64,000 nucleotides of DNA from Micromussa lordhowensis (Eukaryota > Cnidaria > Anthozoa > Scleractinia > Lobophylliidae): NCBI GenBank assembly GCA_964020085.1, contig OZ026607.1, forward strand, positions 14,849,041 to 14,913,040, written 5' to 3'. The notes under the pieces were generated by a model. It was not told the origin of the DNA, did not search any database, and saw only the letters and a list, made by a program, of their open reading frames with translations. The position numbers and the translations under genes are program-made. Positions 1 through 24,832 of the stretch are shown here, in pieces (positions within the stretch are counted from its first letter, which is position 1; each line of letters opens with the position of its first letter).

Positions 1-262
1 GTACGTGACAATGCAACAGGCCGAGTTGTACTTCTCGCCCCAAGGGAGCCTATTCAGTTTATTATTAGCATTTAATTACATAGTTAGCCGACGCCGATTG
101 GCTCTAAAGTATAGTGATTTTCACGTGATCTCCAGCTGATCTTTGAGTCCAAACCGGGCCGCAAGCAAACAAAGGGAAAGGAATGTCCCCTTGGCTTCAG
201 CAGACGTTCGCGAGGGAGGAAGATTGCGTGACGAGCCCAAAGAGCGTCTGCGAAGGAGGCTA
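1..262. mobile_element. Terminus of a Mutator-like (MULE) element, truncated by the window edge
   Basis: The stretch is an inverted near-copy of 21040-21296, the left end of the complete MULE at 21040-21962. Its outer end is GGAGGCTA at 255-262, matching the terminal bases of that element. The other end lies before the window, so the target duplication (CCCAAGGAA would be the right-hand copy at 263-271) cannot be confirmed. Copy identity is high by eye, with a few substitutions and small gaps. Confidence 0.75.
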
Positions 263-595
263 CCCAAGGAACTGATTGATGAATTCTTGAGTGGGTACAA
301 GAGAAGGAAGTACCTCCAGGAGACCCTTGGCAGGGCTTTTAAAGAGTTCCCGTCATCACCTGAATCAATTAAACATGCTGTTGCTATGAAGTACCAGAAT
401 TTCCTATCTCGTAGAAAATTCAACCTTGTGTGTAAAAGAATGTCTTCTTAATTCAATGGAGAGAATGTGGTTTGGATTTCTAGGAATGTGCAATACCTGG
501 GAATTGATATCAGACTTTCTCAGGCAGTTAGTGACAAGGTAGTTGACAAATTTGTTAAAGACTTAAGGTGGCTCGATAGTCAAGTACATATATGA
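263..595 (+). pseudogene. Decayed coding remnant of an unnamed, probably cnidarian, protein family
   Basis: One reading frame runs from the MULE end to a TGA at 593-595, broken only by an in-frame TAA at 449-451. Peptides include FKEFPSSPESIKHAVAMKYQ, FLSRRKFNLVCK and, after the stop, VVWISRNVQYLGIDIRLSQA followed by VSDKVVDKFVKDLR. The Lys/Arg-rich segment followed by a W-x-x-R-N-V-x-x-L-G-I-D motif resembles large uncharacterised cnidarian proteins I have seen but cannot name. The 5' part is missing because a MULE sits there. The tandem duplication breakpoint at 467/468 falls inside the frame, so only the 3' part recurs at 6293-6420. Confidence 0.45.
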
Positions 596-2700
596 AAATC
601 TGAAGATTTTGCCTGACTTGAGGAGAGGAGTGGGGTATTTAAAAGCTCTATTTTTCTGCAAATGTTTTGGTTGAGGGACTGGGTCTGGCATGCATATTTA
701 ATGTATGATGGCAGCTGGTCACGTGACCTTACTCAGCTCATTATAATTGACTTTCGGTTCGGCGGAATCGTGTGTAGCCTTAATGTAATCTGGGGCAAAA
801 ATTGAACCAAATTTCATTATTTTGGGACATTTGCTGGTGCCAGAGCTCATCATTAAGGGCTGAGATGGCTTAAACCTTGCCAATTCCAAAGAACTGTTTA
901 TTGGCACTGTGAATGTGACAAACTTCGACCAGATGCCCGATTGCAGCTACTGGCAGTTTGTTATTTATGGACAAGGGGCCAAAAAGCAAATGAGCCTTGT
1001 CTCACCAGGCTTCAACTGGCAGATATGGAAGTTTCAATCAATTGTGGAAGTGACTGGAAAACTTTTAGTGTGTTATTGAAGCCTGGTCAGAGACTTATAT
1101 AAAAATATCCATTTGGTTGGAGGTAGGTCTTTCCCGCTCAAAGAACACTCTAATTTCCCAGGATGCAATGCGGTCAGATTCCTGCTCGTTGGCTGCTTGG
1201 TTGAGATTGCTGACAAAAAGGAGCTATTTAAGCTCTTGCTGGACTTTTTTGGCCGAACTTTCCAGTTGAGTTGGAAGCAGAAGAGTTGTTTTGTAATGAT
1301 TTCCCTGTGATTAAATGACTGAGCTAATGAAGGATGTGTCCAGACTGTTTGCTTGTGAGGCAAGATTTGCATGAAATCCGTGTGATGTTTTGCAGCTGGT
1401 ATGTAGTTTTTCTGCAATATCTATTGTCTACATTTTCGGAGAAAGAGCACAGTGCTGCCATCTATTTTCCTCCACTGTTTCAGTGCAAAACAAATACTTC
1501 TGCACTAGAATTGCTTACAGAAATGATAAGACCAAGCCTAGAGAATTTTTTTCTCAACCCTATGCAGTTTCGAATGTTCAGACGTGCATGGAAAAGGTAG
1601 CTAGGGACATCCTTAATGTTCCATGCTTTTAATATCTCCAGCTTTCTGGTCCTCAGGCTGAAGGTTGATGAACACTCTATACAATGAACCAAAATAATGC
1701 TTATCTGGCAAATTCTTTTGCTACAGCAGGCAAAACACTGGTGCTGTGTATTGTCCAGAAAGGTCTGTTTTTGCAAATTTCAACTTTCCAGATTATTTTT
1801 CTCTGCAAGTATTGAATGCCAGCCAGCCATTTTGTTTGATTGCATAGACCATCTAAATGTAATCTGCAAAAAATGGTTTCTTGCCTGTGTGACTTATTGT
1901 TTTCTCTCAGTTACTGCTACAAGGAAAGCACCCTCTGAGACACCATACCAAAGCTTGTACTGTTACCATGGCAACAAGACACCCAAACATCATTGTGTTT
2001 GTCATCATTCATAGCAACTAGTGTCGTGATGTTGGTTTTGTCTAATTTAGTTGCATTTTCATGTCAAAAGTCTTTTTGACTATCGAGCCTCCTTAATCAT
2101 TGGTCATTGCAATCAAATACCCAACGTACACCCCAGGTGTTACAAGAACAGTCACAGGGCTTGTCCTTATTATAATGGATCTTCATGTTCGAGGTCCACA
2201 TCTTATCATATATGGGGAAGTTTCATTGTCTTTGTTAACATTCTAAGTGCTCCAGTTGTTAAATGCATCTCGATCCCCCAACACTGCAGTGGAGCAGGAA
2301 GCCCCCGGGCTGGTGGTTCGGTCAACTGATGATTTATTCCCATTTGGGCACTCTGCAGAAAAACATGCTGTAGTAGTGGCTAAAGATGATCCACCAGGTC
2401 AACTGGAAACCAGACCATGTGAACAAACTAAGCCAGGCTGACATGGTGCGCAAACTCATGGTGACATGGCGATATTTTTATTTAAGAAATAATTAAAGAC
2501 AAGATTTAAAGGACTTGTCTTTTTTGTTTTGCTTTGTTGTTTGTTCTCTGGAAGCCTAAGCGGATGTCAGGGGTTTGTTGTGCCAAAAAACCTGATGAGA
2601 AAGAGAAGTAATGAGAAAGAGCAAACTTTGGCAGAATTAAATTCAGCTCATCGCCATTTGCAAGCAAAATGTCACTTAGTACCTAGCTCTTATAAACCAA
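596..2700. other. No supported gene in this part of the duplicated unit
   Basis: Only short overlapping ORFs on both strands, none longer than about 115 codons and none with a recognisable motif. The sequence is moderately AT-rich. The same statement holds for 6421-8525 in unit 2. Confidence 0.5.
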
Positions 2701-2703
2701 GCT

Positions 2704-3065
2704 GGAGGTCTGTATGGGAGAATCTTGACCTAGGTTGTGAGTACAGACCAAACGCAGTTAGGTCTGTACTCACTAACTCACTCACTGTGTTAACTAACAT
2801 TTTGGTCAGATGCCGGTCTATCGATTTCAGCCAATCGTGAATTTGGTAGTTCCGATCCCAGTGCTTGTGAGACAGTGCCATGTAATAAAAACCAGTTACA
2901 TTGAACGAATTAAATTGTTCAAGTTTGCGCCATATAATTAACATGTGATTAACTGAGCTTAGGCGGTCTGTGTGATAGCATCTTGACCTCAGTCGTTTTT
3001 TACAGACCTCACTGCGTTCGGTCTGTACTATCGATCTCGGTCAAGATTCTCATATACAGACCTCC
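2704..3065. mobile_element. Foldback/TIR element with 27-bp terminal inverted repeats (copy in unit 1)
   Basis: 2704-2730 and the reverse complement of 3039-3065 match at about 25 of 27 positions (both begin GGAGGTCTGTAT and end GAATCTTGACC). The interior holds further short palindromes built from the same word: GTGAGTACAGACC...GGTCTGTACTCAC at about 2737-2775, and ACAGACC...GGTCTGT near 3002-3027. No coding potential. This is a non-autonomous element of unassigned superfamily. Confidence 0.75.
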
Positions 3066-3389
3066 ATCTCAGTTAATAAGAGGTAAACATTATTCAATTC
3101 ACTGATAATCGACTATGATCTGGGTAGTCCGCAGGAAAGCAAGCCGCAGTAGCTAGAGATGATCCACAATGCAAATCGGAAACCAGACCATGTGACATGG
3201 ACAAACTGGACATGGTGTGCAACGCAAAGAGGAAACCAATGATGTGTCTACAGAGGAAGCAGGTTCAAAGGCAATGTTAGCATAAATATTACGTACAAAA
3301 TGAAATGTTTGAAGTCATGTTAAAATATTTTTAATTCAGAAATGTTAAGGACTTCAATATACTGTAGTCATATTCTCAGTAATGGACTG

Positions 3390-3512
3390 GAACTAGCTTG
3401 CGATGGATACTAGTGCGTGGAATCGTTTTAAATGCAAGTGACATGGAGCTTTTATTAATGATATCCCCTCTGCATTAGTCTCCATTGCAAGCTAGTTCCA
3501 GTGCAATACCAA
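3390..3512. repeat. Inverted repeat, about 22-bp arms (also at 9215-9337)
   Basis: ACTGGAACTAGCTTGCGATGGA near 3390 pairs with TCCATTGCAAGCTAGTTCCAGT near 3482-3503, separated by about 70 bp. This small foldback is present in both duplication units. Confidence 0.65.
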
Positions 3513-3745
3513 GGATACAAATCTGGTCTATTACAAGATATTAATTATTTTTTTTAGTAGGGGAGGGGAGGGGGAGACAAGAAGACGTCAAGGGACTGTG
3601 GTAATTGTTGGTGCCTGAAAATTAAAGAAAGAAATATCTATACGGAGAACATGGCATTTGGAATCCATTGTTCAAATCATTAATATTCTTATAGTCTTTA
3701 ATGATGAACTTTATGTCCACAAGATAACATGTCTTAAGTCATGTC

Positions 3746-3790
3746 ATTTTCAATACTGCACTCAGCTTCGCTTCGTGCAGTATTGAAAAT
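3746..3790. repeat. Perfect 16-bp-stem hairpin with CTTCGCTTC in the loop (also 9571-9615)
   Basis: ATTTTCAATACTGCAC pairs exactly with GTGCAGTATTGAAAAT around a 13-base loop containing CTTCGCTTC. It is typical of the core of a foldback MITE. The same loop word occurs in the foldbacks at 13591-13735 and 24678-24699. Confidence 0.7.
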
Positions 3791-4324
3791 TTCTCGTTCG
3801 TTGTACAGTAAGCGCTTGCGTGTATTTGAAAACAAAACACTCACAACAGTCTCTAACCCGTAAATACATCACGCGTTATTAATATTAAAGTATTGACTCC
3901 TCAAAACTACAGCTAAAAGATTCTCAGAGACAATTGATCTCAGCTTAACAACTTTATATCCCTGATTGTTTTGCATAGTTATTATAAATACACTGTATAC
4001 TCACTCTATACTGTATACTGTATACTCAAGTTGTTAATATTATCATTTATTAGCTAGGTTTCTGGGGGAAGAGATTCAAGGTTAGAAATTGCAGAACAGG
4101 CTTACAAGAGGCTAGTCACTCACATGGAAAATACCTGTAACAAGCGCCAAACACCAGAAGTTGGCAAGCCAGGCTGTGGTCTGGGTACCTTGTACCGTTT
4201 ATAAAGGAACATTACTCCGAACGAACAGAACAAATGAAACTGGGAAATGGTGGTAGGTCACGCGAGCAAACTACATACGTAGTTTCTACGTTCAAGAACA
4301 TCAGCGCATGCCTAGCTGTTACAG

Positions 4325-4729
4325 CTCACATTTCAATTTTCGTGTTCACCCCACTGTAAAACCTCGATCGAGTGCCATTGCAGTTGTGACAGAAAGAAGG
4401 AGGACAACATTGATTGTTGTGCCAATTGCCTAGAGAGTATGGAAGTTGTTTTATGTGCAAAGAACAAACAACTCTCTCCAAAGGTCCTTGACATTCTGAA
4501 AGCTGTAAAATGTAGTGTATGCAAGAACCTGTTTGCAGATGAAGCAGCACTGACATCACACTTGGCCTCCCGTGGATCTCAAACACAGATAAGAGCAGTC
4601 AACAAGGCACCAAATAACATGGAAGTTGATGAACTTAAAACTAAATTGCGTGCGACGAGACTTTGTACAGAAAGCAATAAAGATATTCCTGTCAGAAGAG
4701 TAGAGGGTGCAATAGCAGATGAACACTAG
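4325..4729 (+). CDS. Cys-rich ORF with C2H2-like and SAP-like segments; probable terminal exon (unit 1)
   Basis: An open frame begins just after a plausible acceptor (CTGTTACAG, ending 4324) and runs to TAG at 4727-4729, 134 codons. An internal ATG at 4439 would give 96 residues. The first part is very Cys-rich (ECHCSCDRKK, then DCCANCLES). Around residues 60-85 is CSVCKNLF with a later His (ALTSH), half of a C2H2 finger because no second zinc-binding His follows at normal spacing. The C-terminal MEVDELKTKLRATRL and RRVEGAI fit a SAP helix-turn-helix DNA-binding motif. SAP domains bind AT-rich DNA in nuclear proteins, and C2H2/SAP pairings occur in transposon-encoded proteins. No upstream exon was identified. 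It could be the tail of a larger gene or an element ORF. Confidence 0.5.
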   Translation, partial: LTFQFSCSPHCKTSIECHCSCDRKKEDNIDCCANCLESMEVVLCAKNKQLSPKVLDILKAVKCSVCKNLFADEAALTSHLASRGSQTQIRAVNKAPNNMEVDELKTKLRATRLCTESNKDIPVRRVEGAIADEH

Positions 4730-6292
4730 ATATATAAAGGAACATTATGCCAATGAATTGAATGTATGAAACCCGGGTGTCAAAGGCCTCGTTGATTCGT
4801 TGATTCATTTCAAAAATCGAGTCGCAAATGTACAAGCAATTAGTAGCTGTCATAAAAATGTAAATTGTATCATGCACCTGTCTTCATCCAGTCCCTTAGG
4901 GCTGGACTCCAGGGAAGGGTACATGCACTTTATGGATCTTTCAGGAAGTTTGTAGTCCCCATCAAGGGGCAAGGTAGGAACGGGCTACCCAACAATGGTT
5001 TAATATAGGGAGGCTCTACCCTGAAGTCCAAATACTTACCATTTACATACCATTTTCCACAGAAAAGGCGGTCCCTCCATGTAGCTTCCATAAAAATGGC
5101 GCCCCTTTCACATCCTTTGGTACAGTAAGCAGAATAGGCAAAATGGTGCTTTGGCAAGGTGAGGAGAATTTGTGCAAGAGACTTCCAAAGACCCTTCAGT
5201 AAATACTCCTAAATCACAGTTTCCCATCATTCTTTTCTACATTGTTTTGTATACTTTGTCCTGTGAAGTTTATGCCTTTTTCATTAAAAAAAAAGTAGCT
5301 ATGGTATATTACAATTTCTGGATTCTGATTGCTTAACAGGTAAAGGTATATGACCTCCATAGACCACATATATGTGTACGCATCGTTTTCTCAACGATTG
5401 TGGCCGATTTTGATGTATTTCTTTGGGTATCTTTTAATAAAATAGTTATTCCACTCCCGCTTATTGTATATGAGATAGTTTATCTACCGTCCTGTATCCA
5501 ACACGTGCTCATAGAATAATTGTTTAACAATATCAAGCTTCGTAAATATACCCATCTCTGTTGGAGCCTCCCTGTATAGTCCGTATAGGTAACAGCACTT
5601 GTGTCCATGGGAAAGATTTAAATGCAAAAAAAATAACTCTGCATGAAAATAAGAGGCAAAACTGTAGCTATGATTTTGCGATTTATTATAACATTCAATC
5701 CCTTTCCCTCAAAGCCCCTGTTTTATATTCCAAATGTTACAATGGAAATCTTGGAAAGATAAATGGAGACTAAAGTGAAACCACTACTAAACTTGAACAC
5801 CTGCTTTTAAAGGAGCTGCCTAACAGATTAAATTCATGGCCATATCGTAAAAGTTTTTTGCATATGGCAAATTAACACTTTCATCATCAGTTACATTGAC
5901 CTGAATGTGCATGACATTTTATTTTAAAACTAAAACATGATATGTTCTATGGACATGTCAAATGAGCGAAAAACAATTATTTTCATTTGTATGGTATTTA
6001 CAAAACAAGAGGACCAGTGTTTTTCTCTATAACCCAAACAATACCCCTAACAGGGAAACACAAATGCTGGTCCAAAAAAATATCTGAGTAATTAATTAAC
6101 AAACGTTTGGAGCTGATATGTGCAATTTCAATAAACAGCTGTCTGCCAAAAATGTATGTTTAAAAGCCATTCCATTAAATAGACAGACTCTATGGATGAG
6201 ATTTTCTAGGGAAGGGAGTAGAAACTTAGTGTCCTTTTATTTTGGGGAGGGGAGTGACTTACTTCATCAGTGGGGAGGGGGGATATAAAATG
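4730..6292. other. No supported gene; AT-rich 3' part of duplication unit 1
   Basis: I see no conserved coding motif. Six of the seven differences between the two units fall between 5489 and 6073 in this stretch. The corresponding region of unit 2 is 10555-12118. Confidence 0.5.
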
Positions 6293-8528
6293 TGGTTTGG
6301 ATTTCTAGGAATGTGCAATACCTGGGAATTGATATCAGACTTTCTCAGGCAGTTAGTGACAAGGTAGTTGACAAATTTGTTAAAGACTTAAGGTGGCTCG
6401 ATAGTCAAGTACATATATGAAAATCTGAAGATTTTGCCTGACTTGAGGAGAGGAGTGGGGTATTTAAAAGCTCTATTTTTCTGCAAATGTTTTGGTTGAG
6501 GGACTGGGTCTGGCATGCATATTTAATGTATGATGGCAGCTGGTCACGTGACCTTACTCAGCTCATTATAATTGACTTTCGGTTCGGCGGAATCGTGTGT
6601 AGCCTTAATGTAATCTGGGGCAAAAATTGAACCAAATTTCATTATTTTGGGACATTTGCTGGTGCCAGAGCTCATCATTAAGGGCTGAGATGGCTTAAAC
6701 CTTGCCAATTCCAAAGAACTGTTTATTGGCACTGTGAATGTGACAAACTTCGACCAGATGCCCGATTGCAGCTACTGGCAGTTTGTTATTTATGGACAAG
6801 GGGCCAAAAAGCAAATGAGCCTTGTCTCACCAGGCTTCAACTGGCAGATATGGAAGTTTCAATCAATTGTGGAAGTGACTGGAAAACTTTTAGTGTGTTA
6901 TTGAAGCCTGGTCAGAGACTTATATAAAAATATCCATTTGGTTGGAGGTAGGTCTTTCCCGCTCAAAGAACACTCTAATTTCCCAGGATGCAATGCGGTC
7001 AGATTCCTGCTCGTTGGCTGCTTGGTTGAGATTGCTGACAAAAAGGAGCTATTTAAGTTCTTGCTGGACTTTTTTGGCCGAACTTTCCAGTTGAGTTGGA
7101 AGCAGAAGAGTTGTTTTGTAATGATTTCCCTGTGATTAAATGACTGAGCTAATGAAGGATGTGTCCAGACTGTTTGCTTGTGAGGCAAGATTTGCATGAA
7201 ATCCGTGTGATGTTTTGCAGCTGGTATGTAGTTTTTCTGCAATATCTATTGTCTACATTTTCGGAGAAAGAGCACAGTGCTGCCATCTATTTTCCTCCAC
7301 TGTTTCAGTGCAAAACAAATACTTCTGCACTAGAATTGCTTACAGAAATGATAAGACCAAGCCTAGAGAATTTTTTTCTCAACCCTATGCAGTTTCGAAT
7401 GTTCAGACGTGCATGGAAAAGGTAGCTAGGGACATCCTTAATGTTCCATGCTTTTAATATCTCCAGCTTTCTGGTCCTCAGGCTGAAGGTTGATGAACAC
7501 TCTATACAATGAACCAAAATAATGCTTATCTGGCAAATTCTTTTGCTACAGCAGGCAAAACACTGGTGCTGTGTATTGTCCAGAAAGGTCTGTTTTTGCA
7601 AATTTCAACTTTCCAGATTATTTTTCTCTGCAAGTATTGAATGCCAGCCAGCCATTTTGTTTGATTGCATAGACCATCTAAATGTAATCTGCAAAAAATG
7701 GTTTCTTGCCTGTGTGACTTATTGTTTTCTCTCAGTTACTGCTACAAGGAAAGCACCCTCTGAGACACCATACCAAAGCTTGTACTGTTACCATGGCAAC
7801 AAGACACCCAAACATCATTGTGTTTGTCATCATTCATAGCAACTAGTGTCGTGATGTTGGTTTTGTCTAATTTAGTTGCATTTTCATGTCAAAAGTCTTT
7901 TTGACTATCGAGCCTCCTTAATCATTGGTCATTGCAATCAAATACCCAACGTACACCCCAGGTGTTACAAGAACAGTCACAGGGCTTGTCCTTATTATAA
8001 TGGATCTTCATGTTCGAGGTCCACATCTTATCATATATGGGGAAGTTTCATTGTCTTTGTTAACATTCTAAGTGCTCCAGTTGTTAAATGCATCTCGATC
8101 CCCCAACACTGCAGTGGAGCAGGAAGCCCCCGGGCTGGTGGTTCGGTCAACTGATGATTTATTCCCATTTGGGCACTCTGCAGAAAAACATGCTGTAGTA
8201 GTGGCTAAAGATGATCCACCAGGTCAACTGGAAACCAGACCATGTGAACAAACTAAGCCAGGCTGACATGGTGCGCAAACTCATGGTGACATGGCGATAT
8301 TTTTATTTAAGAAATAATTAAAGACAAGATTTAAAGGACTTGTCTTTTTTGTTTTGCTTTGTTGTTTGTTCTCTGGAAGCCTAAGCGGATGTCAGGGGTT
8401 TGTTGTGCCAAAAAACCTGATGAGAAAGAGAAGTAATGAGAAAGAGCAAACTTTGGCAGAATTAAATTCAGCTCATCGCCATTTGCAAGCAAAATGTCAC
8501 TTAGTACCTAGCTCTTATAAACCAAGCT

Positions 8529-8890
8529 GGAGGTCTGTATGGGAGAATCTTGACCTAGGTTGTGAGTACAGACCAAACGCAGTTAGGTCTGTACTCACTA
8601 ACTCACTCACTGTGTTAACTAACATTTTGGTCAGATGCCGGTCTATCGATTTCAGCCAATCGTGAATTTGGTAGTTCCGATCCCAGTGCTTGTGAGACAG
8701 TGCCATGTAATAAAAACCAGTTACATTGAACGAATTAAATTGTTCAAGTTTGCGCCATATAATTAACATGTGATTAACTGAGCTTAGGCGGTCTGTGTGA
8801 TAGCATCTTGACCTCAGTCGTTTTTTACAGACCTCACTGCGTTCGGTCTGTACTATCGATCTCGGTCAAGATTCTCATATACAGACCTCC
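8529..8890. mobile_element. Foldback/TIR element with 27-bp terminal inverted repeats (copy in unit 2)
   Basis: Duplicate of the 2704-2730/3039-3065 inverted-repeat element, carried by the tandem duplication. Confidence 0.75.
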
Positions 8891-10149
8891 ATCTCAGTTA
8901 ATAAGAGGTAAACATTATTCAATTCACTGATAATCGACTATGATCTGGGTAGTCCGCAGGAAAGCAAGCCGCAGTAGCTAGAGATGATCCACAATGCAAA
9001 TCGGAAACCAGACCATGTGACATGGACAAACTGGACATGGTGTGCAACGCAAAGAGGAAACCAATGATGTGTCTACAGAGGAAGCAGGTTCAAAGGCAAT
9101 GTTAGCATAAATATTACGTACAAAATGAAATGTTTGAAGTCATGTTAAAATATTTTTAATTCAGAAATGTTAAGGACTTCAATATACTGTAGTCATATTC
9201 TCAGTAATGGACTGGAACTAGCTTGCGATGGATACTAGTGCGTGGAATCGTTTTAAATGCAAGTGACATGGAGCTTTTATTAATGATATCCCCTCTGCAT
9301 TAGTCTCCATTGCAAGCTAGTTCCAGTGCAATACCAAGGATACAAATCTGGTCTATTACAAGATATTAATTATTTTTTTTAGTAGGGGAGGGGAGGGGGA
9401 GACAAGAAGACGTCAAGGGACTGTGGTAATTGTTGGTGCCTGAAAATTAAAGAAAGAAATATCTATACGGAGAACATGGCATTTGGAATCCATTGTTCAA
9501 ATCATTAATATTCTTATAGTCTTTAATGATGAACTTTATGTCCACAAGATAACATGTCTTAAGTCATGTCATTTTCAATACTGCACTCAGCTTCGCTTCG
9601 TGCAGTATTGAAAATTTCTCGTTCGTTGTACAGTAAGCGCTTGCGTGTATTTGAAAACAAAACACTCACAACAGTCTCTAACCCGTAAATACATCACGCG
9701 TTATTAATATTAAAGTATTGACTCCTCAAAACTACAGCTAAAAGATTCTCAGAGACAATTGATCTCAGCTTAACAACTTTATATCCCTGATTGTTTTGCA
9801 TAGTTATTATAAATACACTGTATACTCACTCTATACTGTATACTGTATACTCAAGTTGTTAATATTATCATTTATTAGCTAGGTTTCTGGGGGAAGAGAT
9901 TCAAGGTTAGAAATTGCAGAACAGGCTTACAAGAGGCTAGTCACTCACATGGAAAATACCTGTAACAAGCGCCAAACACCAGAAGTTGGCAAGCCAGGCT
10001 GTGGTCTGGGTACCTTGTACCGTTTATAAAGGAACATTACTCCGAACGAACAGAACAAATGAAACTGGGAAATGGTGGTAGGTCACGCGAGCAAACTACA
10101 TACGTAGTTTCTACGTTCAAGAACATCAGCGCATGCCTAGCTGTTACAG

Positions 10150-10554
10150 CTCACATTTCAATTTTCGTGTTCACCCCACTGTAAAACCTCGATCGAGTGC
10201 CATTGCAGTTGTGACAGAAAGAAGGAGGACAACATTGATTGTTGTGCCAATTGCCTAGAGAGTATGGAAGTTGTTTTATGTGCAAAGAACAAACAACTCT
10301 CTCCAAAGGTCCTTGACATTCTGAAAGCTGTAAAATGTAGTGTATGCAAGAACCTGTTTGCAGATGAAGCAGCACTGACATCACACTTGGCCTCCCGTGG
10401 ATCTCAAACACAGATAAGAGCAGTCAACAAGGCACCAAATAACATGGAAGTTGATGAACTTAAAACTAAATTGCGTGCGACGAGACTTTGTACAGAAAGC
10501 AATAAAGATATTCCTGTCAGAAGAGTAGAGGGTGCAATAGCAGATGAACACTAG
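10150..10554 (+). CDS. Cys-rich ORF with C2H2-like and SAP-like segments (unit 2 copy)
   Basis: Identical by eye to 4325-4729, produced by the tandem duplication. The acceptor, Cys-rich stretch, half finger, SAP-like tail and stop are all preserved. Because the copies are so recent, the lack of differences says nothing about selection. Confidence 0.5.
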   Translation, partial: LTFQFSCSPHCKTSIECHCSCDRKKEDNIDCCANCLESMEVVLCAKNKQLSPKVLDILKAVKCSVCKNLFADEAALTSHLASRGSQTQIRAVNKAPNNMEVDELKTKLRATRLCTESNKDIPVRRVEGAIADEH

Positions 10555-12344
10555 ATATATAAAGGAACATTATGCCAATGAATTGAATGTATGAAACCCG
10601 GGTGTCAAAGGCCTCGTTGATTCGTTGATTCATTTCAAAAATCGAGTCGCAAATGTACAAGCAATTAGTAGCTGTCATAAAAATGTAAATTGTATCATGC
10701 ACCTGTCTTCATCCAGTCCCTTAGGGCTGGACTCCAGGGAAGGGTACATGCACTTTATGGATCTTTCAGGAAGTTTGTAGTCCCCATCAAGGGGCAAGGT
10801 AGGAACGGGCTACCCAACAATGGTTTAATATAGGGAGGCTCTACCCTGAAGTCCAAATACTTACCATTTACATACCATTTTCCACAGAAAAGGCGGTCCC
10901 TCCATGTAGCTTCCATAAAAATGGCGCCCCTTTCACATCCTTTGGTACAGTAAGCAGAATAGGCAAAATGGTGCTTTGGCAAGGTGAGGAGAATTTGTGC
11001 AAGAGACTTCCAAAGACCCTTCAGTAAATACTCCTAAATCACAGTTTCCCATCATTCTTTTCTACATTGTTTTGTATACTTTGTCCTGTGAAGTTTATGC
11101 CTTTTTCATTAAAAAAAAAGTAGCTATGGTATATTACAATTTCTGGATTCTGATTGCTTAACAGGTAAAGGTATATGACCTCCATAGACCACATATATGT
11201 GTACGCATCGTTTTCTCAACGATTGTGGCCGATTTTGATGTATTTCTTTGGGTATCTTTTAATAAAATAGTTATTCCACTCCCGCTTATTGTATATGAGA
11301 TAGTTTATCTACCATCCTGTATCCAACACGTGCTCATAGAATAATTGTTTAACAATATCAAGCCTCGTAAATATACCCATCTCTGTTGGAGCCTCCCTGT
11401 ATAGTCCGTATAGGTAACAGCACCCGTGTCCATGGGAAAGATTTAAATGCAAAAAAAAATAACTCTGCATGAAAATAAGAGGCAAAACTGTAGCTATGAT
11501 TTTGCGATTTATTATAACATTCAATCCCTTTCCCTCAAAGCCCCTGTTTTATATTCCAAATGTTACAATGGAAATCTTGGAAAGATAAATGGAGACTAAA
11601 GTGAAACCACTACTAAACTTGAACACCTGCTTTTAAAGGAGCTGCCTAACAGATTAAATTCATGGCCATATCGTAAAAGTTTTTTGCATATGGCAAATTA
11701 ACACTTTCATCATCAGTTACATTGACCTGAATGTGCATGACATTTTATTTTAAAACTAAAACATGATATGTTCTATGGACATGTCAAATGAGCGAAAAAC
11801 AATTATTTTCATTTGTATGGTATTTACAAAACAAGAGGACCAGTGTTTTTCTCTATAACCCAAACAATACCCCTAACAGGGAAACACAAATGCTGGTCAA
11901 AAAAAATATCTGAGTAATTAATTAACAAACGTTTGGAGCTGATATGTGCAATTTCAATAAACAGCTGTCTGCCAAAAATGTATGTTTAAAAGCCATTCCA
12001 TTAAATAGACAGACTCTATGGATGAGATTTTCTAGGGAAGGGAGTAGAAACTTAGTGTCCTTTTATTTTGGGGAGGGGAGTGACTTACTTCATCAGTGGG
12101 GAGGGGGGATATAAAATGGGACCGGGGCGGGGGGAATAAAATGGAATGGCCCTAAACATTTCTAAAACCGAATTGCAAAGTCCACCGAATGTAACCTGTT
12201 CCAGGCTCTCAGTAGTTGGGGACGAGCGAAAACGAGTTGTTGTGGGGACTTCAAATTGGAGTAGAGCTACATCCTTTCTTAAAGTTATTATATCAGTTGA
12301 TATTTAAAAAGTTATGTAATACTCTACAATAAAACTGAGATACT

Positions 12345-16346: not shown

Positions 16347-16715
16347 TTATGTAAAAAGTTTGGCGCGAACAGAATCCGATTGCGTGTTAAGTTTTGGTTT
16401 TATGTTCCTGATGAACAGCATCTCGTAGATTAAACAGTCAAACTTTGTGCGACATTTCTTTAGGACTCTAAACTGGTCTTGTAGATTAGTCGGTTGCAGC
16501 CTGTGTTCTTCTTGCAAGTGTTTACCAATAGCAGAATGTTTATGTTCGGCGATGCGTTGAAAGAGGTGTCGTGATGTGTATCCGACATAATTTTTGGTCA
16601 AATCTGGATTTTTTTTATGGATTTTTAAAGTCCGTTTTTTTTTTTTTGTTCCTGACCAGGTTATCAACATCGCAAAGTGAGTAGTCAAACGATGACGACC
16701 AAGGTGATTTATACC
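16347..16715 (-). pseudogene. GIY-YIG endonuclease tail of a retroelement (Penelope-like or similar), interrupted by a MULE
   Basis: The minus strand encodes NYVGYTSRHLFQRIAEHKHS, then IGKHLQEEHRLQPTNLQDQF, KKCRTKFDCLIYEMLFIRNI and a final SVRAKLFT before the stop. YVG..TSR..R..EH, a later Glu in YEMLF, and the terminal LN..SDSIRAKLF-like ending are the GIY-YIG nuclease pattern. These domains sit C-terminal to reverse transcriptase in Penelope-like and some other retroelements and nick target DNA. The first part of the domain is degraded into a poly-Lys tract. Immediately upstream the sequence is cut at 16716 by a MULE insertion. I could not find reverse transcriptase on the far side (after 18311). 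Confidence 0.75.
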
Positions 16716-16857
16716 TAGCCTGCGTGGCAGGCCGTACAAGGGGTAGGAAAGGCCGCAGAGAGGCCCTAGAGAGTTTTGGGAGGGGAGAAGGGAACGGTCT
16801 GCAAGGACGCTATTGTTTTTTTGTTTTTATTTCGTCCACCAGCCGAACGTAAAAATC

Positions 16858-16906
16858 CTGATTGGTCAGATTTTAAGAATTACTCAATCCGTCGTTCTGA
16901 TTGGTC
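16858..16906 (+). promoter_or_regulatory. Two CCAAT-box (NF-Y type) sites upstream of the helicase fragment
   Basis: CTGATTGGTC occurs at 16858-16867 and 16897-16906, both exact matches to the inverted NF-Y consensus. They lie 51 and 90 bp before the ATG at 16957. Paired CCAAT boxes at this distance are typical of TATA-less metazoan promoters. Function is inferred. Confidence 0.5.
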
Positions 16907-16956
16907 AGCGACTTGTCATGCAGGAGCATCGGTCTTTGCTCTTTCATTCATTCAAC

Positions 16957-17211
16957 ATGGCGGATATCTCAAGTGATCGGCTTGAACATTTGCTTGGGGA
17001 AACGCTAAGATCTTTGGAAGACAATGGAATGAAATTCGTCAGAAAAGCAGAGCAAAAGAAGGCGATCAGACAGTTGTTCGAGAAAAAGGATCTTTTAGCC
17101 GTTTTACCCACGGGCTATGGAAAGAGTCTAATTTTTCAGCTTCTTGTGTTGCTCGCGAAAAGAGCAGGGAATTCTGCTTCTTTATTAGTCATAGAAATTA
17201 AAAAGTTGTGA
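16957..17211 (+). pseudogene. RecQ-like DEAD-box helicase, N-terminal fragment with Walker A
   Basis: The chosen start MADISSDRLEHLLGETLRSL follows the promoter-like CCAAT boxes; the frame is open further upstream but without protein character. EQKKAIRQLFEKKDLLAVLP contains the Q-rich entry helix typical of RecQ family, and LPTGYGKSLIFQ is motif I (Walker A, GKS). After ASLLVI the frame turns to EIKKL and stops at 17209-17211, where motif Ia and the remaining helicase domains should follow. Only about 85 of an expected several hundred residues remain, so it cannot be an active helicase. It lies inside MULE-1 and reads inward from its left terminus. Confidence 0.75.
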
Positions 17212-17461
17212 CAGGCCTGCACGACTCCTGTTGTGTGCAAATGTGTTTTCTTTGCCTTTAGAGTATGGATCGCACGAGTGTAAAATGAGGTTGACTAGCC
17301 CGACACGACTCCTACGGTTCGTGACATTTGTACATTTGCCGTTCTCTGTTTGGTCTCTCGACCTTTTGTTGCTTCACTCCTGTTTATGAAGGGCACTTCA
17401 TACTGTGTTATAACGAGGATTTTTTAGTAGAACTGAGCCGTTATACTGTGCTATAGCTAAT
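17212..17461. other. Non-coding middle of MULE-1 between the two convergent gene fragments
   Basis: No ORF with protein character. It probably marks the internal deletion junction that removed the rest of the helicase. Confidence 0.4.
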
Positions 17462-18294
17462 TTAGAGGTCATTGGTCTGCATAGTTTCCGCTGTTATCGG
17501 CATGTCGCTTTGCAGAGTTTGACAGGTCTGTAATTTGCCATGTGTTTCTAGAAACGCATCTTTGAACTCGGGGGCAAGAAGATCGTGACGAAGACATGCG
17601 TTGGCCACGGTCGCCCAGTTTTGTAATGCGATGTTTCTGATGATACTTTGGCTCTCGTCGTCAATTTTATTCATCACTGAAACTTCTCCACTAGGAAAAG
17701 AAATTAGACTTTGACCGCGGCTCCTTTCGACGTATCCAAATCGTCAATGTTACATTTAGACAACACATTGCAATGTACTGCACTAAAAAATTCCTCGGTT
17801 TTTCCATGGTCGTCAAATTGCAGAGATTTTTTGCCCTTCACATTGGACGATTCCATTCCTTTTTCGTTGATTTTTGTTTCAGGGGAATAAGTTGTTACGC
17901 TTTTGCGATTATGAGGACTGCCACGTGCTGTAGGTGACAGAACATCAAGTAATTTTCTCTTCGCGCCTTCGGAATTCTCCTTGTTTTCTTCTTTCTTCCG
18001 CGCTAAACGTTTTTATGAACTGAAAAAGTTCACCCAAGTTCTTGATCTTCCGCTAACAGGCATTGCAGACCATCTGCGAATCGTTGTTAGAAGCAGTCAC
18101 TGTTATCCCTACGTTCTTCAGAGTATCGCTTAAAACAACTCCGAATATCTCTTTTCTCGCGGCCGTTTTAAATATGTTGACACAAGATTTTGCTGCACAG
18201 TTGCCATATGACACCTTTATATTCACCTGGCAAACTCTACAAACGTCGTCGCGCTCGTTTTTTTCCCTTCTCCCTCCACTTCGACGCCTGCCAT
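17462..18294 (-). pseudogene. ZAD-like zinc-binding protein gene, disrupted, starting inside the MULE-1 terminus
   Basis: Starting from ATG at 18294, 8 bp inside the element end, the minus strand reads MAGVEVEGEGKK and then shifts by one at a seven-A run. VCRVCQVNIKVSYGNC follows, then a hydrophobic helix region (KEIFGVVLSDTLKNVGITVT) and QMVCNAC, a TAG stop, RKIKNLGELFQFIKT. C-x2-C, about 50 residues, C-x2-C followed by a basic helix is the layout of ZAD zinc-coordinating domains. After another frameshift come KRKLLDVLSPTARGSPHNRK and a Ser/Lys-rich linker, a stop near 17,706, and then MNKIDDESQSIIRNIALQNW to the end at 17462. At least three frameshifts and one nonsense codon show it is dead. 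The family identity beyond ZAD-like is uncertain. Confidence 0.6.
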
Positions 18295-18311
18295 GCAGGC
18301 TAATTTATACT

Positions 18312-19260
18312 GTATGCTGATGACTCTCTGACCAACGAAGAATGGACAGCCAAATGAGGTCGATGGTGAGAAAGAACTCGAACGAGCTCTGATGGACAGT
18401 CCCAAATTAAAGGCTATCATCTGTAGAATTTAAAGAGTGATACTACTAAGACTGTAGTGCATGGCGCGTATTTAATATTCTCGCGCATTCTTCGATCTCG
18501 CATTAACATAGTTTCGTATAAATAACAGTCAAGTCCGTTTACTTTCTCAAATTATTTTAACTTCATACGTTCAACGTAGATCAAAATGTTTATCCCATGA
18601 CACGATGTTTTCTTAAAGTGCAAGTGTGGAAATTAGAATAGCGTTGCTTCTCTTCAAAAACATCAGCAAATATTATTGTTGTTAAGTGAGTTAGAAGGTT
18701 GTAGAGACTCAAAGAAGAGTGATCTTGTTCTTGAAGATATTTGCGCTGATGTTATCTTAAAGTGTGTTACTGAATATCCAGGAATTAAACCTGTATGCCT
18801 TCAGAAATGCAGTTTTAAGATTACTCGGGGGCAAATGCAAAACTAAAGGGAAGCAAACCTAACATCAAACTGGGAACGAAGGAAGGTAGGTCACGCATGC
18901 ACCTGGCTGTAAAAAAAATTAACAAACGTTTAAGAATCCATCTTTATATGCACGCACACAACATTTTACTTAACACTGATTCTTCCAATTTACAAGTATA
19001 GTTATGAAACGATCACTTTACATGTATAAACAAGTGATTGCAAAGTTCCCGGGTAACAGGGGGGTAGCTAGGAGCAGGTTATGTTTTCGCAAATTTCTGT
19101 TGGACAATTGTGAATTACGATTAGTGTACACTCGTCTAGTCCTGTATCACTGTTACAAGCATGTATTAGTAATCCTCAAACAATTCAGTTACTTTTTTGT
19201 GATTTCTTCATTGAGCTTTATTTCAGCTATCCTGTCCTGATTTGACCTTCATGAGGAATT
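18312..19260. other. No firm gene; one coding-like stretch near 18,690-18,850
   Basis: A plus-strand frame at about 18,691-18,846 reads ELEGCRDSKKSDLVLEDICA and then DVILKCVTEYPGIKPVCLQK. It has protein-like composition but no start, splice site or motif I can name. The rest is AT-rich and unassigned. Confidence 0.3.
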
Positions 19261-19266
19261 TTTACC

Positions 19267-19372
19267 GGTCTAGATGGGAAAATCTAGACCGCGTCCAATA
19301 TCGATTTCAGCCAATCAAATTCGTGAATTCGGTAGTTCCCAGTCGTTGTGAGACACAGCCATATAATAAATA
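19267..19372. repeat. Dispersed repeat fragment related to the inverted-repeat element at 2704-3065
   Basis: GGTCTAGATGGGAAAATCTAGACC (19267-19290) echoes that element's terminal word. The following TATCGATTTCAGCCAATC..GTGAAT..GGTAGTTCC..GTGAGACA block matches 2818-2889. It is a truncated, diverged copy of the same family outside the tandem duplication. Confidence 0.6.
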
Positions 19373-19624
19373 TAGATAATACCCACAAGTAAAATAAAGG
19401 GTTCTTAACATATATACTAATTCTAAGCCAATCCTTGGTTGAATGTCTCCATGGCCGCATTTGTTGAACGGTGGGTCTTCCAAACTAGTGTGTTTGCTAA
19501 CAACATGACTTTGATAGGATTTCATTCTTGCCCAAATCACTCTCACTGATTTTCTTCAAAGAATTGAACAAGGAAGGAAACTAACAGGTCAAGGCAGAGA
19601 ATATTTGCTCAGAAAAAAAATATC

Positions 19625-19995
19625 TCACCATTCCATAGCTTTCGGCTGTGCTGACTGACGACTGCTGTTGTTTCTCAGATTAGAAGCAACAACGGCTGCA
19701 TGAATCGATGGAAAAGCGGTTATTTCAAATTCGTCTCGCTTAAGCTAAGAAGTCAGCAAAATCCTTTCCTCTCTCTGAAAATCCAAGCGTCGAGCGAGAT
19801 CATTTGGTTTGAAATGCTTAGAATAGATCACCAAACTCTTAGACGGCTGTCACTTTGCACGAATTGAGCCATCGCTTTGTACCTTTCTTCTCTTCAGGAC
19901 GATCATCTCTCCATAAAACAGTATGGCATGACGCGCAGTACCTCCTGTAAGTTTGTTGTGTTGCTACATCTCACTACAGCGCACCTGGCTAACAT
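19625..19995 (-). pseudogene. THAP-domain zinc-finger pseudogene
   Basis: From ATG at 19995 the minus strand gives MLARCAVVRCSNTTNLQE, the C-x4-C start of a THAP domain. Frameshifts follow: DRPEEKKGTKRWLNSCKV contains the invariant Trp, then KSLVIYSKHFKPNDLARRLD is the second half of the zinc site. Then LKRDEFEITAFPSIHAA after a TAG stop corresponds to the AVPTIF-like end. The C-x2-H ligand pair has become Y-S-K-H, so even without the frameshifts the zinc site would be broken. THAP domains are DNA-binding modules of P-element-type transposases and of host transcription factors. A perfect TGACGTCA lies upstream at 20074-20081. Confidence 0.75.
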
Positions 19996-20073
19996 TTTTT
20001 TCCAACAACTTTCCCAGCCTATCCTACAGAAACAAGTAAATATGCGAACCACAGAATCATCGTGTTCTGGGTT

Positions 20074-20081
20074 TGACGTCA
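20074..20081. promoter_or_regulatory. Perfect CRE/ATF site 79 bp upstream of the THAP pseudogene start
   Basis: TGACGTCA is the full palindromic CREB/ATF consensus. It lies 79 bp before the minus-strand ATG at 19995, within proximal promoter distance. An equivalent site stands 85 bp before the DUF3504 gene start at 59021. Confidence 0.4.
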
Positions 20082-20109
20082 CATTCGGCCCTGGACCCAT
20101 GCCCCGTTA

Positions 20110-21030
20110 AACTCGGTCGTGAAGTAAAATGGCGGTATTTTGGCGTACTTTGACGAGCCATGGAAAATCAAAGATTTAACCAAATTTTTTTTTTTTTTAC
20201 TCCACAAAATAAGCTTTATTGTTTTAGCGAAAGAAAGTTTTTGGGGTAAGGTGCACTTTAACGTTGTACGAAAACGTGGACTTTCTACCTAACCAGACCC
20301 AACCATGGCGAAGGAATCAAGTTAAAAACGAAACCTTGGGAGTAGATTTAAAGAAAATTAGCTAGTTTGTATAAAATGTCTGAAACGAACAGAGCGTGGA
20401 GTCTTTTGTACATGATCACAAACTGAATGGAGAGAGATTTGATTTATTTTGCCTTGTTTTTGTTTGTGATTGCACTTCACTTACTCTCGCAGAGCTTTTT
20501 TTTTATAACTTACTTTTCAATTTTTTTCTCAGTCCAAGAAAAGAGAACAATTAAGCTTAATTTTTTATTTCGGTTTTACTAGAAAACAGTAGAGAGATTT
20601 TGTCGGCAACGGTACTAGATTCGACCGATGCAAAGTGTATAATTTTTTTCATTCAGCTAATTTTCATTTATAAGCGTAGATTAAGCATATTTTACAAGGA
20701 ACTCACTGGCTGGGTTGAACAGTTCTATCGACGAATTCCTAACTACCTCAAATATTGCTATATTTATAACTGAGTTAAAACACGTTCACATTCCACTGCT
20801 TCCTAATTAAATAACAATGATTTAACAAAATCCATGATTTATTGATTTCCCTATATTTTGCTCGCAAATGCTACATATCTTTTAGTAATTTATGTCTGTT
20901 TTCATTTGAAAGCGTCCTTCCAACCCTAATTGCATGTTTCCCTCATTAGAAAGGAAAAGGAGAGCCATCATGTATTTCATGATCCATTTCTTTATCTTTT
21001 AACAAGTTTAGCTAATTTACTGGAAAGCTA
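20110..21030. other. No gene recognised; AT-rich
   Basis: Low-complexity T tracts (for example 20188-20199) and short ORFs only. Confidence 0.4.
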
Positions 21031-21039
21031 TAATAAGGA

Positions 21040-21962
21040 TAGCCTCCCACGCAGACGCTCTTTGGGCTCGTCACGCAATATTCCTTCCCCACGAACGTCT
21101 GCTGAAGCCAAGGGGACATTCCTTTCCCTTTGTTTGATTGCGTCCCAGTTTGGACTCAAAGATCAGCTGGAGATCACGTGAAAACTACTTTAGAGCCAAT
21201 CGGCGTCGGCTAATTATGTAATTAAAAGCTAATAATAAACTGAACAGGCTCCCTTGGGGCGAGAAGTACAACTCGAACTGTTGCATTTTCACGTACGGCA
21301 ACGTCAACGTTTTCAAGTTTACTATGCAGCTTTTCTATAGCTAATCCAGTCCGCGTTCGTAGATCTACGAGCACTTTATCTTTTTCACAGTGAAATAAAG
21401 GTAAACTATAGTTTCTCGATGGGGATTTAAACAGATTATCGTAACTGTCTCACACACTCAATGAAAGGACACGCTCAGCTGCACGCTAGTATTTTGGCGC
21501 TTTGCGATCATTTCAAGTAGACTTTCCGCAGGCTTCCAGCATTTGATAGAAACCAGCCATGCAAATGAATGTCCGCGTACGAACATGTCCATCCTTTTCT
21601 TCCCATATTAAATACTTTACAGCTTCTTGCCGATAACGTTGAGATAATCGTTGAAAGGTCGCGTGGGTATCCGTAAATTAACAAAGACGAGCACATTTTT
21701 CTTCACGAAATATTCCATAGCTTCTCGCTGAAAAGGATTCAAATCGACGATTTTGGAAGTCTCGCAAACCCGTTGGAAGGCCACGCAAATATCCGCCATT
21801 CTTACAACGTCGCGCGCGAAAATTGATCAAGGTTCAAAGTTCGCTGCCTTGATCGGGAAGTCCGCTGTGATTGGTCTAATTAAACAACCCATTCGTTTCA
21901 GCAGACGTTCGTGGGGAGGAATATTGCGTGACGAGCCCAAAGAGCGTCTGCGTAGGAGGCTA
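21040..21962. mobile_element. Mutator-like element MULE-2 (923 bp) with 66-bp TIRs and perfect 9-bp target duplication
   Basis: 21040-21106 (TAGCCTCCCACGCAGACGCT...) and the reverse complement of 21897-21962 (TAGCCTCCTACGCAGACGCT...) differ by one substitution and one indel. TAATAAGGA flanks both sides exactly (21031-21039 and 21963-21971). The near-identical termini and perfect duplication indicate a recent insertion. Internal cargo is the start of a RecQ-like helicase on the minus strand. The first ~255 bp recur inverted at window position 1-262, so the family is multi-copy. Confidence 0.9.
21617..21799 (-). pseudogene. Second RecQ-like helicase N-terminal fragment, inside MULE-2
   Basis: The minus strand from ATG at 21799 reads MADICVAFQRVCETSKIVDL, then NPFQREAMEYFVKKNVLVFV, the pre-motif I region of RecQ-like helicases (F-Q-x-E-A-x-x-x-F entry helix). 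After VFVNL the Walker A should appear, but the frame goes to RIPTRPFNDYLNVIGKKL and a stop, so motif I is absent. The fragment begins 163 bp inside the right terminus and reads inward, as in MULE-1, although its sequence differs clearly from the MULE-1 helicase. A CCAAT box (GATTGGTC, 21870-21877) lies about 71 bp upstream. Confidence 0.6.
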
Positions 21963-22061
21963 TAATAAGGAAAGAAAGCTAAGATATTGTCTAACATTAT
22001 GATGATCTAGTTAATACCAGCCAAAGCAAGTGATATTGCTTTTTTTCTGTTTTAAAGATTT

Positions 22062-24734: not shown

Positions 24735-24832
24735 TAGCCTGCGTCGCAGACAGACAAAACCGCCGGTTTAGTCCGTCCTGTAGACGGACTATACCGGGGA
24801 TATTGTGACAGGTCCGAATGCAACGGAGGCTA
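24735..24832. mobile_element. Miniature Mutator-like element MULE-3 (98 bp)
   Basis: It begins TAGCCTGCGTCGCAG, nearly the MULE-1 terminus, and ends CAACGGAGGCTA, the MULE-2 type terminus. Flanks TTAAAGCCC (24726-24734) and TTAAGTCCC (24833-24841) agree at 7 of 9 positions. The interior holds a hairpin (CCGGTTTAGTCCGTC..GACGGACTATACCGG). The degenerate duplication makes the call probable, not certain. Confidence 0.55.

Follow-up and report, generated by a model that had tools for sequence, protein, structure and literature searches.

A stretch of 64,000 nucleotides from the scleractinian Micromussa lordhowensis (assembly GCA_964020085.1, contig OZ026607.1, positions 14,849,041 to 14,913,040), referred to below as the window, contains two short DNA transposons with terminal inverted repeats (TIRs), E1 and E2. 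In a preliminary description of the sequence, these had been named MULE-1 and MULE-2, respectively, and interpreted as Mutator-like elements (MULEs) that carry the start of a RecQ-like helicase gene just inside one terminus. The window was scanned for TAGCCT..AGGCTA pairs located 40-25,000 bp apart and flanked by target site duplications (TSDs) that agree in at least 7 of 9 positions. Only E1, E2 and a 98-bp pair resembling a miniature inverted-repeat transposable element (MITE) were found. While the two TSD copies of E2 are identical (9/9), those of E1 agree at 8/9 positions, an agreement that was reached in 47 of 200,000 draws of random place pairs. Both E1 and E2 are bona fide TIR elements, and their coordinates are listed in Table 1 together with those of their constituent parts.

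The helicase reading of E1 begins at an ATG at position 16957, which lies 241 bp from the left end. The corresponding open reading frame (ORF) of 84 amino acids matched the Pfam family DEAD (1.8e-7), its best match in the PDB was ATP-dependent DNA helicase Q4 (3.4e-4), and its relatives include the proteins P0001 (8.6e-5) and P0002 (7.7e-4). In E2, the ATG is found at position 21799, 163 bp from the right end. Both distances are exactly those of the preliminary description, which had also placed the truncation of both readings near motif I. This is borne out, since the reading of E1 retains motif I and breaks at about residue 79, some 20 residues beyond it, and that of E2 ends at residue 43, immediately ahead of it.

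The 60-amino acid ORF of E2 matched no Pfam family, yielded nothing meaningful in the PDB (best E 0.13) and had no homologue among 9 candidates. A match of the read-through E2 frame to DUF6404 (0.0038) was under the cut-off of that family and was disregarded. The ORF scored better against the helicase P0001 than all but 1 of 1,000 shuffles, scored at chance level against the four other helicase sequences of the five compared, and ranked 59 among 5,001 in a profile test. Judged from the window alone, its reading as a helicase start would thus be doubtful. One hint is offered by the 11-mer ATGGCGGATAT, which occurs within the window solely at the two helicase starts. The CCAAT boxes that had been put forward as a further shared feature are present in both elements (at 16861 and 16900 in E1, and at 21870 on the complement in E2), but they are weak evidence, as boxes of the same quality were found at random places in 7% and 23% of draws. 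Because such boxes and also ORFs of such size and position (6% and 11%) arise by chance, the window alone is insufficient to prove the shared architecture.

E1 contains a second gene remnant. From 18250 to 17552, its minus strand encodes residues 16-249 of P0003, one of two matches among 249 candidates, with an E value of 6.7e-38 and 75% identity (75-87% when compared piece by piece). As this remnant of a P0003-family gene faces the helicase, E1 contains the remnants of two inward-facing gene starts. The likeness of the remnant to the zinc-finger family zf-AD is weak (E 0.036), and in P0003 itself the Pfam search gave no significant zf-AD match (E 4.5) and no match to DUF6589. The predicted structure of P0003 had a mean pLDDT (predicted local distance difference test) of 32, which is too low for use.

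Full-size elements and the derivation of E1 and E2

The preliminary description had proposed that both elements are internal-deletion derivatives of larger elements encoding a helicase. This is upheld by two elements of the same genome, 8,152 and 8,861 bp long, which have TAGCCT ends and 9/9 duplications and encode both helicase domains; one end of E2 is a near-copy of part of the 8,152-bp element. Full-length homologues of the helicases are therefore found within TSD-bounded elements and not only in host genes. In the 8,152-bp element (C14), the helicase exons matched DEAD (6e-19) and Helicase_C (7.3e-18), two domains that RecQ helicases share, and, below the cut-off of 25 bits, RecQ_Zn_bind at 3.5e-4 and 21.7 bits. 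Splicing was looked at for the first helicase intron of this element. Convergent to the helicase lie two DUF6589 exons (1.5e-8 and 8.8e-26), ahead of which an N-terminal exon displays, by eye, a CxxC..CxxC pattern, with no Pfam zinc-finger match. The two gene starts are close to the termini, with the helicase ATG 170 bp from one and the ATG of its partner gene 227 bp from the other. The 8,861-bp element (C7) is organized in the same way, with a P0003-like exon followed downstream on the same strand by a DUF6589 exon (5.7e-17), and with helicase exons on the opposite strand (DEAD 2.1e-14, Helicase_C 1.9e-15). Its gene starts were counted by hand on the reading frames to lie 297 and 310 bp from the ends. 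The exons on each strand, including the N-terminal and DUF6589 exons, presumably form one gene.

The alignment of E2 with the C14 element shows that they share the leader and the first 43 codons, start codon included. With 94.7% identity, the helicase end of E2 corresponds to the beginning of a full-length helicase gene, and residues 1-42 of its reading share 90% identity with the full-length helicase located at L047:244, so that the start in E2 is RecQ-like, as had been claimed. Since the helicase reading of E2 stops after the 43 codons shared with C14, E2 is a deletion derivative of the C14 family. Across the genome, the start of the E2 helicase was matched 75 times, a number that counts E2 itself and, for some loci, two pieces.

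For E1, related copies were collected from the genome of the window (580.8 Mb), in which P0003 has at least 90 matches, a count that includes E1 itself and in which many loci are split into pieces. DNA identity to genome copies of the family is 76-86% over positions 1-477 and 837 to about 1549 of E1, and helicases of family copies match the E1 ORF at up to 81%. Relative to related copies, E1 is without the leader and start codon of its P0003-family gene; the distance to the end is 52 bp for residue 16 of P0003 in E1, compared to 307 bp for residue 1 in the copy L041. The E1-family copies aligned to E1 already are without the 3' parts of both genes. At the deletion site, E1 carries a repeat that is 92% and 91% identical to both flanks of the copy L045 and, over 87 bp, 98% identical to a segment of L022 adjoining the same gene break. 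These matches suggest that the rearranged form of E1 may itself have been copied.

Table 1. Features of E1 and E2 in the window, and full-size elements (G000 entries) of the same genome
Feature	Position	Strand	Length	Details
E1, non-autonomous TIR transposon	16716..18302		1,587 bp	ends TAGCCTGCGTGGCAGGC / TAGCCTGCATGGCAGGC
E1 left TSD	16707..16715			ATTTATACC
E1 right TSD	18303..18311			ATTTATACT
E1 RecQ-like helicase 5' remnant	16957..17211	+	84 aa to stop	motif I LPTGYGKS included
E1 dispersed repeat or filler at deletion site	17278..17547
E1 convergent gene 5' remnant, P0003 family	17552..18250	-		CxxC..CxxC N-terminus; one stop, frameshifts
E2, non-autonomous TIR transposon	21040..21962		923 bp	TIR ~77 bp at 93.5%
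E2 left TSD	21031..21039			TAATAAGGA
E2 right TSD	21963..21971			TAATAAGGA
E2 ORF, first 43 residues RecQ-like helicase 5' remnant	21619..21799	-	60 aa
C14 helicase end retained in E2	21670..21962	-		TIR, leader, first 43 codons; 94.7% to L047 373-73
C14 DUF6589 end retained in E2	21036..21134	+		96.0%
E2 sibling, non-helicase end	1..262	-		runs past window edge; 91.7-92% to E2 left end
Full-size element C14	G000:C14:2237073-2245224		8,152 bp	TSD GCCTGACAA, 9/9; ends 20/20
Full-size element C7	G000:C7:6038149-6047009		8,861 bp	TSD CTGGGAGAC, 9/9

Pairing of helicase and DUF6589 genes in the genome

Twenty P0003 loci were fetched, which correspond to 19 distinct ones since L018 and L021 overlap. 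A helicase like that of E1, on the opposite strand and convergent to the P0003 gene, was present within the 1.5-kb flank at 15 of them; at L019, L020, L022 and L023, no convergent helicase was found within this distance. Wider stretches comprised 14 regions, 12 around P0003 loci plus C6b and C7b. A convergent helicase was observed in all of these except C5b and C13b (12/14), and nine of them have TAGCCT end pairs flanked by 9/9 duplications. In the other five (C5b, C2b, C6b, L042 and L046), of which C2b is partly masked, no end pair was recovered. Over the 15 genome regions examined, a 9/9 TSD was found in ten, and the remaining five gave no end pair. At L044, the E1-family copy (4524-6525) lies inside a second TAGCCT end pair (3937-7165; 20/20 ends, 9/9 duplication), an arrangement that looks like the insertion of one such element into another.

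The pairing was also assessed for the genes themselves. DUF6589 has at least 105 matches in the genome, representing at least 102 places, and the helicase exon of C14 at least 92 matches, representing at least 84 places. Among the matches listed, 53 helicase-DUF6589 pairs lie within 8 kb, compared to 0.24 expected from density; 52 of these are convergent and one is on the same strand. In the DUF6589 alignment, GDN, GDQL and E-x-D-G blocks were recognized by eye, one row having GNQL. Five loci (L049-L053) have intronless long open frames of up to 620 amino acids across the DUF6589 region.

Between the C7 and C2 elements, the ratio of nonsynonymous to synonymous substitution rates (dN/dS) was 0.135 for the helicase (401 codons), and 0.087 (194 codons) and 0.127 (128 codons) for two DUF6589 exons. 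Both genes therefore appear to be maintained by purifying selection. When C7 was compared with its near copy C323, a dN/dS of 0.198 for the P0003-like exon and no amino acid changes in 105 helicase codons were obtained, in both cases with changes too few to weigh.

Relation to known transposons

Going by the title of Kojima 2020 (Mob DNA 11:15), AcademH is reportedly a helicase-encoding lineage of Academ from animals and fungi. Duplications of 9 or 10 bp, with a length linked to the helicase, are given for AcademH (PMC10045372), a RecQ helicase is named in Academ (PMC3627910), and DEAD and Helicase_C are listed for AcademH, KolobokH and Helitrons (PMC10799480). The elements described here resemble AcademH in having a helicase gene within a DNA transposon and TSDs of 9 bp, compared to 9 or 10 bp in AcademH. 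By these two characters they fit AcademH, a described lineage of the Academ superfamily. It is very probable that E1 and E2 are internally deleted copies of two related TIR families with convergent helicase and DUF6589 genes, fitting AcademH. The preliminary description had envisaged an undescribed class of helicase-bearing Mutator element. Neither part of this is upheld, as the partner gene is DUF6589, with no MULE domain in the scanned exons and no MULE match within 30 kb of the 92 helicase matches listed, and the combination of a helicase with 9 or 10-bp duplications is already that of AcademH (PMC10045372). The elements are probably not Mutator, their class is not clearly undescribed, and they are new members of a kind that is probably known.

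The full-size elements measure 8-9 kb, lie between 9-bp duplications and have two genes that converge, with starts situated 170-310 bp inside the respective ends. The first encodes a RecQ-like helicase, the second probably a protein that combines a CxxC..CxxC N-terminus with a DUF6589 domain. According to this interpretation, deletions took away the middle and spared an end with its leader and first codons, leaving E2 with a helicase start and E1 with remnants of both gene starts. The product of the DUF6589 gene is the probable transposase. Its N-terminal zinc finger could bind the element ends and its DUF6589 domain could cut and join, the GDN, GDQL and E-x-D-G blocks possibly providing acidic residues. 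The helicase might unwind or process ends or repair intermediates during transposition. E1, E2 and other short copies might be mobilized in trans via their ends.

Several observations weigh against this interpretation. Among the matches listed, 31 of the 84 helicase places and 49 of the 102 DUF6589 places are unpaired at a distance of up to 8 kb, and since near-identical copies on small contigs account for some of the places, the pairs are not all independent. The dN/dS values from C7 and C2 are rough, since dS (1.03-1.25) is near saturation. DUF6589 has no PDB relative, which leaves its identity as a DDE/D transposase unproven. In E2, the middle segment (21135-21669) has no counterpart in the C14 element or in any fetched sequence. 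As for E1, the full-size parent is deduced from relatives because no full-length copy of its own family is present among the 90 P0003 matches listed for the genome; the longer protein of its second gene is known here from P0003 alone, and the P0003-like exon of its full-size relatives is 34-37% identical.

Short non-autonomous elements with gene starts are also characteristic of Pack-MULEs and Pack-TIRs (PMC8277862), and E1 and E2 could accordingly have captured the 5' end of a host helicase gene, gene starts near a terminus being favoured. Such captures are reported in plants, and 370 Pack-TIRs are given for 100 animal genomes (PMC8277862); E1 and E2 do contain gene starts only. However, both helicase domains sit within TSD-bounded elements, 52 of the 53 pairs listed are convergent, both genes appear to be under purifying selection, and the leader and TIR of E2 are contiguous with the parent gene, indicating that the genes are the element's own and not captured host genes. 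For E2, capture is refuted by the 8,152-bp element, and overall we regard it as extremely improbable. Hardly more credible is the view that E1 and E2 belong to Mutator-like elements which acquired a helicase gene and are mobilized by a MULE transposase. It is compatible with the TIRs and 9-bp TSDs, with the second, often antisense, ORFs of some Mutator groups (PMC6446971), and with 61 MULE-domain matches in the genome, obtained in a search in which 3 of 14 prokaryotic controls also matched. Yet no MULE domain (PF10551) was found in the element exons scanned, a set that is not complete and leaves aside the first C7 exon, none of the 92 helicase matches listed has a MULE match within 30 kb, and the recurring partner is DUF6589. 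The word "helicase" is absent from the main text of the Mutator survey (PMC6446971).

Kolobok elements likewise include TIR transposons with a RecQ helicase (KolobokH and Kolobok-1_CCri), which in the latter is encoded on the complementary strand, as in the present elements, but they generate 4-bp TTAA duplications (PMC9587614), whereas the TSDs found here are 9 bp long and varied in sequence (e.g., GCCTGACAA, CTGGGAGAC and TAATAAGGA), and Kolobok was ruled out. Coral CMITEs were set aside on account of their TTAA duplications (PMC2872659). Rather unlikely, though deserving consideration, is that the proteins with a CxxC..CxxC (perhaps ZAD-like) N-terminus and DUF6589 are the transposases of an unnamed convergent two-gene superfamily, with the RecQ-like helicase as a conserved partner under selection and distinct from both Academ and Mutator. 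No Pfam transposase model matched the P0003/DUF6589 proteins, and DUF6589 was not found in the literature searched, which leaves out most subscription papers and Kojima 2020. If true, such a superfamily would account for the occurrence of DUF6589 proteins and helicase copies throughout the genome. Against it stands AcademH, an animal and fungal lineage in which a helicase and TSDs of 9-10 bp are already combined.

Two otherwise unremarkable short elements thus point to a lineage of helicase-carrying transposons that has been amplified, with at least 84 helicase and 102 DUF6589 places in one genome. DUF6589, a Pfam family of unknown function, is now tied to transposons, and its role as a transposase is directly testable. 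A helicase apparently under purifying selection in a TIR element raises the question why cut-and-paste transposition would need a RecQ-like helicase. A caution also follows for annotation, in that gene models of RecQ-like helicases in genomes of this kind may belong to transposons.

Neighbouring features and related sequences

In viral and bacterial collections, we found phage-like helicase contigs (L001-L003) and short-pattern matches without related sequence (L004-L006), and otherwise nothing. P0001, a gene model of 962 amino acids from Stylophora, fuses STAND NTPase and TPR domains to a RecQ-like helicase start (MAERRD) and probably arose when annotation merged a transposon remnant with a host gene.

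Within the window, the MITE-like element of 98 bp lies at 24735-24832, has TAGCCT ends and a target duplication of 7/9, and was perhaps mobilized by the same kind of transposase. Next to the left end of E1, a GIY-YIG endonuclease domain (9.1e-5) is encoded on the minus strand at 16350-16826, in an open frame that extends into E1 and that we take to be the remnant of a Penelope-like element. Positions 464-6292 and 6289-12118 form a head-to-tail duplication of ~5.83 kb with 99.88% identity, which is either a recent tandem duplication or an assembly artefact. Finally, the minus strand at 57311-58421 matches DUF3504 (1.5e-7) and, below threshold, QRICH1, resembling a Crypton-type tyrosine recombinase.

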